From Desulfurellaceae bacterium (GTDB lineage Bacteria; Desulfobacterota; Binatia; Bin18): a stretch of DNA of 36,197 bases. Below, one piece after another: positions 25,616 through 29,639 of the stretch. Every line of letters begins with the position of its first letter. Positions within the stretch are counted from its first letter, which is position 1. The position numbers were made by a program, and so were the translations under genes. Location: NCBI GenBank assembly GCA_021296095.1, contig JAGWBB010000030.1:1-36197 (forward strand), in the 5' to 3' direction. The notes under the pieces are model-generated. The model did no database searches and had not been told where the DNA came from. It worked only from the letters and a program-made list of their open reading frames with translations.

Positions 25616-26641
25616 GTGAGCGTGAGCCAGCCATCCTCCAGCGCGTCCCAGGTCAGCCGAGCGGTGTATGACCTGGACCGTCTGTTTTCCCTGCGCGAGG
25701 CCGTCACCAGCCTGGATCCTGGCGCACCGCCCCAGGTGCGGGTGCTTGCGTCCGGGCCGATCCGCGCCTACCGCCGCATCGGTATTCTGTGCGGCTCGTT
25801 CAATCCCCTGACTCTGGCCCACAGCCAGCTGGCCGAACAGGTCTGTCACACCTGGCAACTCGACCAGGTGTTTCTGAGCCTGGCCACCCGCACCGTCGAT
25901 AAAGAACAGGTGACCGGCCTGGGTCTTGAGGACCGCCTGGCCCTGCTGTCACTCTACGCCGCAGGCCGACCGTCGATGGGTGTGGCGCTGGTCAACCGCG
26001 GCTTATACGTCGAACAGGCCCGCGCCTTCCGCCGCCTGTTGGGACCGGACACCGAGCTGTGTTTCCTGACCGGCATGGACAAGCTGGTTCAGATCCTCGA
26101 CCCCCGCTACTACCAGGACAGGGATGCGTCCCTGCGCGAACTGTTCGACTTAGCCGGTCTGATCGTTGCCAACCGGGGAGAGCTGGACCAGGCCGCGTTC
26201 CGCCGGCTGCTGGCCCAGCCGGACAATCGGGCCTTTCGTCCGGCCATCCGTTTCTTTGGGCTGTCCGCAGCGGCAAGCGCGCTCAACGACCTGTCGGCCA
26301 CCGCCATTCGACACGCGCTGGCCAGCGGGCGCTCAATCGACGCCCACGTTCCTGCCGAAACGGCCGCCTACCTGCACGAAACGCGTGCCTACCAGCCCCC
26401 CCAGTTGCGGGCCGGAGAAGTCATAGACGCCTATGCCATTCGGCTGGCGCTGCTCCGGCTGCTGTACAGCGCCCAGCTCCGGGTCGATTTGCGGCGGCTG
26501 GTGCAGACGGCCCTGGCGGCAAGTCCACACGGACGGCGCTTCCGCCAGGCGTGTGCCGAACCGTCAACCGAGGTCGCCGTGGAGCTACTGCGCACGTGCC
26601 TTGAGCGGCCAGACCTCGGCGCCGGAGGTGGTTCGGGCTAG
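25616..26641 (+). CDS. NadD-like nucleotidyltransferase with C-terminal extension
   Basis: A protein of about 341 residues with an adenylyltransferase fold. GILCGSFNPLTLAHSQLAEQ contains the G-x-FNPxTxxH nucleotide motif (H69), and SATAIRHALASG is the ISSTxIR-type motif of NadD/NMNAT enzymes. TGMDKLVQILDPRYY replaces the usual GxD segment. The family joins NaMN or a similar mononucleotide to ATP. After about residue 250 a further 90 residues (from HETRAYQPPQL) are helical, and I do not recognise them. GTG 25616 and GTG 25622 both follow GGAGAG, so either start may be used. It may be a true NadD variant or a nucleotidyltransferase for another substrate. Confidence 0.75.
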   Translation: MSVSQPSSSASQVSRAVYDLDRLFSLREAVTSLDPGAPPQVRVLASGPIRAYRRIGILCGSFNPLTLAHSQLAEQVCHTWQLDQVFLSLATRTVDKEQVTGLGLEDRLALLSLYAAGRPSMGVALVNRGLYVEQARAFRRLLGPDTELCFLTGMDKLVQILDPRYYQDRDASLRELFDLAGLIVANRGELDQAAFRRLLAQPDNRAFRPAIRFFGLSAAASALNDLSATAIRHALASGRSIDAHVPAETAAYLHETRAYQPPQLRAGEVIDAYAIRLALLRLLYSAQLRVDLRRLVQTALAASPHGRRFRQACAEPSTEVAVELLRTCLERPDLGAGGGSG

Positions 26642-26705
26642 CCGGTGCGGGAGCGGAATGCTAGCCTGCGGGTGGCCCGCCCGTGTCTGGAGCAGCGAGG
26701 AGCGT

Positions 26706-27683
26706 ATGAGCAGTCAGCCGGTGACCGACTTTCTCAAACACCACTTCCGTCATTTTAATGCGGCCAGCCTGATCGAGGCCGCAGACGCCTATAAGCGCCA
26801 CCTCGACCGGGGCGGCAAGATGCTGGTGGCCATGGCCGGCGCCATGAGTACGGCGGAAATCGGTCTGTCGCTGGCCGAGATGATCCGCCAGGACTGCGTC
26901 CACGCCATATCCTGCACCGGGGCCAACCTCGAAGAAGATGTGTTTAACCTGGTCGCCCACAATGACTATGAACGCGTGCCCCACTACCGCGACCTCACTC
27001 CGGCTCAGGAAGCCGACCTCATCGAGCGGCATATGAATCGGGTCACCGACACCTGCATCCCTGAGGATGAGGCCATGCGGCGGGTAGAGGTGGCCATCCT
27101 TGAAGTGTGGCTGGAGGCCGAACGGCGGGGCGAGCGTTACTTTCCGCACGAATATTTTTATCAGATTCTCCGCTCCGGCGCGCTGCAAGCCTCCTACCAG
27201 ATCGACCCCAAGGACTCGTGGCTGCTGGCCGCCATGGAGAAAAATCTGCCCATCGTCGTGCCGGGCTGGGAAGACTCGACGACCGGCAACGTATTCGCCA
27301 GCCACTGTATGACGGGCAAGCTCGCCAGCACCCAGACGGTCCGCAACGGCACCGAGTACATGCGCTTTCTGGCCGAGTGGTATGAGGAGGTGAGCCAAAC
27401 CAGCCCGATTGGCTTCTATCAGATCGGCGGGGGCATTGCGGGCGACTTTCCGATCTGTGTCGTGCCGCTGCTCATCCAGGATCTGCGCCGCACCCAGACC
27501 CCGCTGTGGAGCTACTTCTGCCAGGTCAGCGATTCCACGACCAGCTATGGCTCGTACTCGGGGGCGGTGCCGAATGAAAAAATCACCTGGGGCAAACTCG
27601 GGGTGGAAACTCCGCGTTATATCATCGAGTCCGACGCGTCGATCGTGGCTCCGCTCATGTTTGCCTATGTGCTGGGAATGTAG
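26706..27683 (+). CDS. Deoxyhypusine synthase-like protein
   Basis: A 325-residue member of the deoxyhypusine synthase superfamily. The NAD site region has KMLVAMAGAMSTAEIGLSLAEMI and SCTGANLEEDVFNLVAH, and the catalytic-lysine segment TWGKLGVE keeps K297, the residue that carries the butylimine intermediate in the eukaryotic enzyme. Bacteria have no eIF5A, so these proteins usually act on free polyamines, e.g. making homospermidine from putrescine or spermidine, or aminopropyl-agmatine-type products. The start follows AGGAG 5 nt away. The CysQ-like gene begins 5 nt after its stop, suggesting cotranscription. Substrate is not determined by the sequence. Confidence 0.9.
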   Translation: MSSQPVTDFLKHHFRHFNAASLIEAADAYKRHLDRGGKMLVAMAGAMSTAEIGLSLAEMIRQDCVHAISCTGANLEEDVFNLVAHNDYERVPHYRDLTPAQEADLIERHMNRVTDTCIPEDEAMRRVEVAILEVWLEAERRGERYFPHEYFYQILRSGALQASYQIDPKDSWLLAAMEKNLPIVVPGWEDSTTGNVFASHCMTGKLASTQTVRNGTEYMRFLAEWYEEVSQTSPIGFYQIGGGIAGDFPICVVPLLIQDLRRTQTPLWSYFCQVSDSTTSYGSYSGAVPNEKITWGKLGVETPRYIIESDASIVAPLMFAYVLGM

Positions 27684-27688
27684 GGCGT

Positions 27689-28522
27689 ATGACACATCAG
27701 CTGGAGCGTGAAAAAACCACCGCCGTGGCCGCCGCCCAGGCGGCCGGGACGGTCATTCGGGCGGTGTATGAAACGAAATACCGCGTGGACTACAAACGTA
27801 ACGACAGCCCGGTCACGGTTGCCGACCGTCAGGCCAACCACCGCATCCACCAGATCATCCAGCACGCCTTTCCGCACGACGGCTGGCTGTCGGAAGAAAC
27901 CATCGACTCCCCGGACCGGCTGTCGAAACGCCGCGTGTGGGTTGTTGATCCGCTCGACGGGACCAAGGAGTTTATTGACAAAGTCCCCGAGTTTGCCGTC
28001 TCGATCGGCCTGATCGAGGACGGCCAGCCGCTGCTGGGCGTCATCTACTACCCGGCCCTGGACGAGTTGGTGTGGGCCGCGCGCGACCAGGGCGCCTGGC
28101 GCCGAACGGGTGACACGAGCGACACGCGGCTGCGCGTCAGCCCCACCGAGCGCCTGGCCGAGGCCACGGTGCTGTCCAGCCGCTCGGAGACAAAACGGGG
28201 TGAATGGCGGCCGTTTCAATCTCTTTTCCGCGCCCGGCCCGCAGGCGGGATGGCGCACAAGCTGGCCACCGTGGCCAAGGGCGAGGCCGATGCGACCTTT
28301 ACCCTGGTGCCCAAGAACGAGTGGGACCTGTGTGCGGGTGCCGTGCTGATCGAAGAGGCCGGCGGTCTGCTCACCACGCTGGGCGACAAGCCGGTGGTGT
28401 TCAACCAGGCCACCACCCTGCTGCAAGGGCTGGTGGCCAGCAACCGGCTCCTCCACCCCCAGCTCATGGCCGTGGTGACGCCCCGTCTGGGTCAGCGCCA
28501 CCGGGCGGAAACGCGGCGCTGA
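27689..28522 (+). CDS. Inositol-monophosphatase-family phosphatase, CysQ-like
   Basis: A 277-residue metal-dependent phosphatase. The family motifs are LSEET, VDPLDGTKEFID and NEWDLCAGAVLIEEAGG, with the two metal sites complete. The KEF residue after DGT and the SRSETKR loop favour the CysQ (3'(2'),5'-bisphosphate nucleotidase) branch, which removes the by-product PAP of sulfate assimilation and sulfotransfer. The start lies 5 nt after the preceding gene, so it is translated from the same message. Assignment to CysQ over inositol monophosphatase is by motif only. Confidence 0.85.
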   Translation: MTHQLEREKTTAVAAAQAAGTVIRAVYETKYRVDYKRNDSPVTVADRQANHRIHQIIQHAFPHDGWLSEETIDSPDRLSKRRVWVVDPLDGTKEFIDKVPEFAVSIGLIEDGQPLLGVIYYPALDELVWAARDQGAWRRTGDTSDTRLRVSPTERLAEATVLSSRSETKRGEWRPFQSLFRARPAGGMAHKLATVAKGEADATFTLVPKNEWDLCAGAVLIEEAGGLLTTLGDKPVVFNQATTLLQGLVASNRLLHPQLMAVVTPRLGQRHRAETRR

Positions 28523-28602: not shown

Positions 28603-28821
28603 GTGGCTCAACTCGCTGCCCTTTTTCAAAGCCGTCCCAAACCCCGCTGTCCGGCGTGCCACAAGTGGAACCGGGTGTATGTGACCGGCGGTTCGTTTCT
28701 GTCCGCGTGCGTCTACTGTGGCGCGGCGCTCGACCGACACCGGGCGCCAGCCTGGGGGATCGGGGTCATTCTGGTCGCCGGCGCGCTGGCCCTGGCGGCC
28801 ATTCCCCTCCTCGCCCGTTAG
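28603..28821 (+). CDS. Small zinc-ribbon, single-membrane-span protein
   Basis: A 72-residue ORF starting with GTG behind GGTGAGG. It has a zinc ribbon C-P-A-C (32-35 in PRCPACHKW) and C-V-Y-C, then a C-terminal hydrophobic helix WGIGVILVAGALALAAIPLL, consistent with a one-span membrane protein with a cytoplasmic zinc knuckle. I know no named family. Its stop overlaps the stop of the convergent rhodanese gene by 4 bases. Codon use agrees with its neighbours, which supports coding. Confidence 0.6.
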   Translation: MAQLAALFQSRPKPRCPACHKWNRVYVTGGSFLSACVYCGAALDRHRAPAWGIGVILVAGALALAAIPLLAR

Positions 28822-29639
28822 TCCTTTTCGAGCGGCAAATCTTCCCGGTTGCCCCACTCGGCCCACGAGGCGTCATAGTTGCGGACCGCGTCAAAACCGA
28901 TTAACCGCAGGGTGAAGAGTCCGTGCGCCGCACGGATACCCCCCTGTCAATAGGTGACGACTTGTGACTCGGGCGTGATGCCAGCCTCGGCAAACATGGC
29001 CCGTAGCTCGGCCGCAGGTTTGAACTTCTTGGTCTGGTCGTCAACATAGTTGAGCCACTCCAGGTGTACGGCACCGGGGATACGTCCCCCCCGCTTTGTG
29101 CCCCGTGCGTTCTGCCCGCTCCACTCGCCGTCAGAGCGCACGTCGAGCAGCACCCGGTCGGTCTGACCGATTGAGTCCCGGATATACTCCCAGCGAGCGA
29201 TCAGCTCCTCATTCACCTGGGGGCTGAAGCGGGCCGCAGCCCGTCTGGCCGGCGCGTTGGTCAGCGGCCGTTCCTCGGCCAGCCAGGCGTCCCAACCGCC
29301 GTTCAGCACCGCAGCTCGGGTGTGACCATAATAGTTGAGCGCCCACCACAGACGGGTAGCGTACAGCCCGCTGAACCCGTCATAGGCGATGACCAGGGTG
29401 TCGTCCCCGATCCCCAGCCCGCCCATGGTCTCGGCAAACTGTTCGGGTCCCATGATATGCGGCGCGCCCTCTTTTTCCTTGAGATAGTGGTGCCCACGAA
29501 ACGTCACCGCCCCGGGAATATGTGCCCGGCGGTAGGCCTCACGGTTATCGCAGTCGACGATGCATACGTCTTGGAGATGCTCGGCCAGCCAGTCGGTCTC
29601 GACCAGCATCTCCGGTCGGCTATAGTTGTGGTCTGCCAT
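28818..29639 (-). CDS. Two-domain rhodanese, apparent selenoprotein (TGA read as Sec231)
   Basis: A thiosulfate:acceptor sulfurtransferase-type protein of 273 residues if one TGA (28947-28949) is read through. The N-terminal domain (VCIVDCDNREAYRRAHIPGAV, VIAYDGFSGLYATRLWW) is the usual inactive rhodanese half. The C-terminal domain (VLLDVRSDGEWSG, HLEWLNYV) runs to VVTY, TGA, QGGIRAAHGLF, where the TGA replaces the catalytic cysteine of the CxxGxRA loop. Beyond it 42 more residues remain conserved, including YDASWAEWGNR, typical of the family end, up to TAA. A SECIS-like hairpin follows. I read this as selenocysteine; a nonsense mutation is the alternative. Start: AAGGAG upstream of ATG 29639. 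It is third in an operon with the LLM and epimerase genes. Confidence 0.85.
28908..28949 (-). promoter_or_regulatory. Candidate bacterial SECIS element
   Basis: Directly after the TGA, CCGTGC (28935-28930) and GCACGG (28926-28921) form a perfect 6-bp stem with loop GGC (28929-28927). The loop begins 17 nt past the TGA and starts with G. That meets the known bSECIS constraints of a hairpin loop about 16-37 nt after UGA with a G among the first loop positions. CAGGG (28946-28942) and CCCTG (28912-28908) can close an outer stem. Because the stem overlaps the coding sequence for GIRAAHG, both protein and RNA conservation act on it. Confidence 0.75.

Follow-up and report, generated by a model that had tools for sequence, protein, structure and literature searches.

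The hairpin that follows an in-frame TGA in a rhodanese gene of a Desulfurellaceae bacterium is almost certainly a bacterial SECIS (bSECIS) element, with which SelB would deliver selenocysteine (Sec) to the rhodanese UGA and give a full-length Sec sulfurtransferase. The gene, the position of its TGA, the hairpin, the selective retention of the hairpin with the TGA and the full Sec machinery of the genome were computed directly. The features below are given in coordinates of the window, i.e., the whole stretch of 36,197 nucleotides that was analysed.

28818..29639, minus strand: two-domain (tandem) rhodanese, a sulfurtransferase of the SseA/COG2897 type, 273 aa; its single in-frame TGA is predicted to be read as Sec (U231), and it ends at TAA 28820-28818; basis: translation, Pfam, NCBIfam, PDB relative and orthologues
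28947..28949, minus strand: in-frame TGA in place of the catalytic Cys codon of the second rhodanese domain (Y-U-Q-G-G-I-R); basis: alignment to the active-site Cys of 1uar/3hzu, TGA in 24/24 orthologues from two families, Cys in the nearest Cys orthologues
28920..28936, minus strand: putative bSECIS core hairpin UCCGUGC-GGC-GCACGGA, 7 bp; basis: fold, invariant in 23/24 Sec orthologues and absent from Cys homologues
28927..28929, minus strand: apical loop GGC, its first G being the 18th nt after the UGA (17-nt spacing); basis: sequence, same loop and spacing in the SelD gene of the same genome, model constraints in PMC13188914
28942..28946, minus strand: 5' arm of a possible outer helix (CAGGG), pairing with 28908-28912 here
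28908..28912, minus strand: 3' arm of the possible outer helix (CCCTG), pairing with 28942-28946 here

The Rhodanese Gene and Its In-Frame TGA

The mechanically called ORF (28947-29639, minus strand, 230 aa) stopped at the TGA, and the same frame ran for 42 further codons to the TAA. These codons encoded 42 residues of the domain, and the rest of the 273-aa protein was intact. Pfam Rhodanese (PF00581) matched the protein twice (1e-33), in keeping with tandem rhodanese domains, and the nearest NCBIfam model was 3-mercaptopyruvate sulfurtransferase, with a score below the model cut-off. The nearest solved structures were 1uar (Thermus), the best PDB relative, and 3hzu (Mycobacterium SseA). Both share the two-domain architecture, and the catalytic Cys of both was aligned to U231; they differ in carrying Cys rather than Sec and in the active-site loop, which is UQGGIR here and CRIAER/CRIGER there. 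An annotation that stopped at the TGA would lose 43 residues of the rhodanese, including the catalytic one.

The gene was accompanied by genes for an inositol monophosphatase, a deoxyhypusine synthase family protein, a luciferase-like monooxygenase and an NAD-dependent epimerase. This neighbourhood was syntenic in many relatives, indicating that the rhodanese is an ordinary chromosomal gene. Deoxyhypusine synthase is typically archaeal or eukaryotic, and the family member found in this bacterium (26433-27680, plus strand) itself shared synteny with the rhodanese gene among relatives.

Geometry and Folding of the Hairpin

The minus-strand sequence following TGA 28949-28947 was CAGGGGGGTATCCGTGCGGCGCACGGACTCTTCACCCTGCGG. 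An earlier note on this DNA had described an exact 6-bp stem, CCGUGC/GCACGG, starting 11 nt after the TGA, with a GGC loop, G first, 17 nt away. The stem and loop were found as described (pairs 15-20, numbering the T of the TGA as 1), and a U-A pair lengthened the stem to 7 bp, so that the core paired 14-20 with 24-30 around the loop at 21-23 (in the window, 28936-28930 with 28926-28920 around 28929-28927). The translation also agreed with the note in placing the hairpin within the peptide GIRAAHG.

According to the bSECISearch model, as restated in PMC13188914, a bSECIS has an apical loop of 3-9 nt and an upper stem of 4-16 bp, G in the first two loop positions, 16-37 nt between the UGA and the apical loop, and an MFE of at most -7.5 kcal/mol. 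The hairpin lay within the model on all four constraints (GGC loop, 7 bp, 17 nt, and -20.9 kcal/mol for a 45-nt stretch), which bears out the spacing claimed earlier. Its C-GGC-G also fits the bSECISearch consensus N1-G-[G/U]-N-N2; it departs from the consensus in that the rhodanese core was letter-for-letter invariant across two families, without covariation. An Rfam scan of the window and the locus gave no match, which for the bSECIS class carries no information.

Folding of the region after the TGA, as the earlier note had proposed, gave -22.5 kcal/mol for a 53-nt stretch (z -3.35, 0/200 shuffles as good); for the 45-nt stretch, z was -2.5 and 4/200 shuffles were as good. The 14-nt core CCGTGCGGCGCACG occurred once in the genome, at the rhodanese hairpin. 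When the same peptide was recoded synonymously with the codon usage of the family, a stem of at least 7 bp arose in an allowed position in 6.0% of the recodings, and the MFE was reached in 1%. The significance of single-sequence folding was thus moderate, and one sequence alone is suggestive only; the comparative evidence is decisive.

Conservation of the TGA and the Hairpin in Sec Orthologues

An order-wide search found an orthologue in 16/16 genomes, each with exactly one internal TGA. A class search added eight genomes of family f117, in which the protein identity was 52-54% (about 53%) and the TGA occupied the same codon. These results established that the selenocysteine rhodanese is fixed throughout an entire uncultured order, in which relatives are named Candidatus Binatota/Binatia. 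In a phylum-wide sampling for further TGA rhodaneses (E <= 1e-60 for protein, 1e-55 for profile), only stop-free homologues were found besides the gene itself. One record labelled Klebsiella pneumoniae (CAMBFS010000120.1, L054) carried the Sec-rhodanese of this lineage at 72% identity and is apparently a mislabelled metagenome bin.

The earlier note had said beforehand that TGA-containing homologues without the hairpin would count against the element; there were none (0/24). Codons 235-240 (ATC CGT GCG GCG CAC GGA) were identical in 23/24 Sec copies, and the 18-nt core ATCCGTGCGGCGCACGGA was letter-for-letter identical in the same proportion of the Sec orthologues. The exception, L066 (G240V), had GTA instead of GGA and kept 5 bp and the loop; the best stems of the other Sec copies were 7-8 bp, and the GGC loop was present in 24/24. 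The window gene shared all six hairpin codons (6/6) with every Sec orthologue compared, against 33-60% codon sharing elsewhere.

To quantify this constraint, we took 15 full-length genes of family f1, which gave 141 columns with an invariant, degenerately coded residue. Only ten of the 141 were single-codon columns, and six of these were the hairpin codons 235-240, which formed the sole stretch of at least three such columns; outside the hairpin the rate was 4/135 (~3%). The naive product for the invariance of the hairpin codons was ~1e-9, an order of magnitude only, as it ignores phylogeny. Among the few other single-codon columns was Y230, the codon before the TGA (28950-28952, minus strand), which was TAT in 23/23 full-length Sec orthologues compared. 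Compensatory changes in the core stem, which the earlier note had asked for, did not appear in the 24 Sec copies because the core essentially never varies.

The TGA could instead be a genuine stop codon or a mistake in assembly, in which case the 230-aa ORF would be either the product or a pseudogene, and GC-rich codons would have given rise to the hairpin by chance. The mechanical ORF does end at the TGA, and the 6% of synonymous recodings with a comparable stem point the same way. But the same TGA was present in 24 separately assembled genomes from two families, the protein was conserved across and beyond it, the hairpin codons were invariant and the Sec machinery was present. The orthologues of the order and of f117, together with the codon invariance, refute this explanation, to which we give practically no credence.

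Cys Homologues as a Control

The nearest Cys orthologues (L069-L071, from genomes G417, G419 and G420) had TGC at the codon, followed by the near-identical peptide QGGIRAAHA, and lacked the hairpin. Among the hairpin codons encoding the same residue, L070 shared 0/5 with the window and L069 shared 2/5. In all 22 Cys homologues examined (the three nearest and 19 more distant), the best allowed stem was 2-5 bp, as against 7-8 bp in the Sec copies except L066. Hence the hairpin was not kept to the same degree in Cys homologues, the other outcome that the earlier note had named as adverse. A tRNA-Sec was also present in G417, G419 and G420, so that its presence does not separate the Sec from the Cys rhodanese genomes, and the hairpin is missing in step with the codon rather than with a loss of machinery. 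In a quick tree, the Sec and Cys rows needed one change with weak support (54); we therefore make no claim on its direction. The contrast between the Sec and Cys orthologues, whose peptides are nearly identical and whose hairpin status is opposite, cleanly demonstrates selection acting on a SECIS within a coding region.

The codons might also be conserved for another reason, such as a DNA- or protein-binding site, a signal for codon usage or pausing, or mRNA stability, with Sec insertion needing no specific hairpin. A sequence-specific site would likewise show absolute identity of the core without covariation. Nevertheless, the conservation followed the TGA, Cys orthologues with the same peptide were without the hairpin, and its position and loop matched both the bSECIS model and the element after the selD TGA in the same genome. 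We consider such an explanation very unlikely, and a bSECIS remains the preferred reading.

The Possible Outer Helix

An extension of the hairpin by a CAGGG/CCCTG pairing (pairs 4-8/38-42) had also been suggested in the earlier note. The pairing formed in the window, and that part of the suggestion stood; across orthologues it was only partly conserved. Among 17 distinct rows, pair 4-42 was unpaired in seven and pairs 6-40 and 7-39 in two each. The pairing was broken in L014, L019 and L023, one compensatory change was seen (L013), and the covariation was no better than in shuffles, 87/500 of which gave the same value. Given a single compensatory change, several breaks and this comparison with shuffles, the outer helix is a weakly supported, optional extension.

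Sec Machinery and the selD Hairpin

The genome of the window contained selA, selB, selC and selD. The selC gene, adjoining selA, was matched by Rfam RF01852 (72 bits), and ARAGORN called it tRNA-SeC (anticodon tca); the three next-best RF01852 places were checked and were ordinary tRNAs by ARAGORN (Ser, Ser, Cys). The selB gene, adjoining selD, encoded the winged-helix domain PF09107. A tRNA-Sec was found at E <= 1e-8 in 21/24 Sec-rhodanese genomes and was not detected at this threshold in G008, G002 and G495, all of which are fragmented drafts. Matches to the formate dehydrogenase alpha subunit (TIGR01591) were present in 8/8 genomes tested as a further candidate TGA gene, and none had an internal stop.

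The selD gene (L055:1501-2436, i.e., C46:5964-6899 of the genome) also contained a TGA, followed by the hairpin GGUCC-GGC-GGACC. In both the selD and the rhodanese hairpins, a GGC loop closed by C-G lay 17 nt after the UGA, while the stem sequences differed. The selD hairpin folded no better than shuffles (z 0.12); its support is thus position, loop and conservation in the TGA-containing copies of f1 and f5, not energy.

Readthrough of the TGA in the rhodanese gene could also follow if the whole genome used TGA for an ordinary amino acid, e.g., Trp or Gly, and selenium played no part. Against this, the adjacent inositol monophosphatase-family gene ended in TGA at 28522, the Sec tRNA, SelA, SelB and SelD were present, and the TGA column was the active-site Cys in relatives. 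Reassignment is accordingly extremely improbable, and Sec insertion is the reading adopted below.

Proposed Mechanism and Relation to Known Sec Rhodaneses

From what is established about rhodaneses and the Sec pathway, we infer SelB binding, Sec insertion and Se-S chemistry as follows. During translation of the rhodanese mRNA, SelB carrying GTP and Sec-tRNA(Sec) would bind the hairpin, with the apical GGC loop and the upper stem as the main contacts. Selenocysteine would thereby be brought to the UGA, which lies 17 nt upstream of the loop, and the UGA would code for residue 231 rather than stop. The expected product is a full-length sulfurtransferase in which Sec replaces the catalytic Cys and would carry the sulfane atom as a selenosulfide (Se-S) intermediate. 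On the same grounds, the enzyme may act as a sulfurtransferase, on thiosulfate or mercaptopyruvate, or in the delivery of selenium.

Sec-containing COG2897 (SseA) rhodaneses have already been catalogued as "rhodanese form 4, UxxG", from a few marine metagenome sequences (three in the Sargasso set and one in the GOS set) and the representatives MQG53192.1 and MCY3690685.1 (PMC1088965, PMC2398784, PMC9312934, PMC13188914). The present rhodanese matches this type by domain type and UxxG motif: it is a COG-type tandem rhodanese with UxxG (here U231-Q-G-G234) and a UGA followed by a predicted bSECIS. The present hairpin and gene are thus a further example of a known bacterial mechanism. The catalogued cases differ in coming from few marine metagenome sequences, whereas here the Sec form is fixed in a clade that spans an order (16/16 genomes). 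Our literature search found no published selenoproteins in the Binatota lineage.

Loop and Spacing across the Lineage

In family f117, the selD hairpin differed (GUN loop, 33 nt) while the rhodanese kept GGC and 17 nt. We tentatively suggest, as a possibility with clearly less than an even chance, that SelB reads a near-fixed module in this lineage (a C-GGC-G loop exactly 17 nt after the UGA) common to the unrelated rhodanese and SelD genes, while in f117 a single genome combines two loop types, GGC at 17 nt and GUN at 33 nt. If true, the lineage would be a natural test of the loop and spacing specificity of SelB. The Sec-rhodanese, which persists even in genomes whose SelD has lost Sec, might serve to deliver selenium or sulfane sulfur. 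In seven genomes of genus g2 (L104-L110), the SelD match lay without a TGA in a frame of 759-775 aa, probably a fusion, and the Sec-rhodanese was kept.
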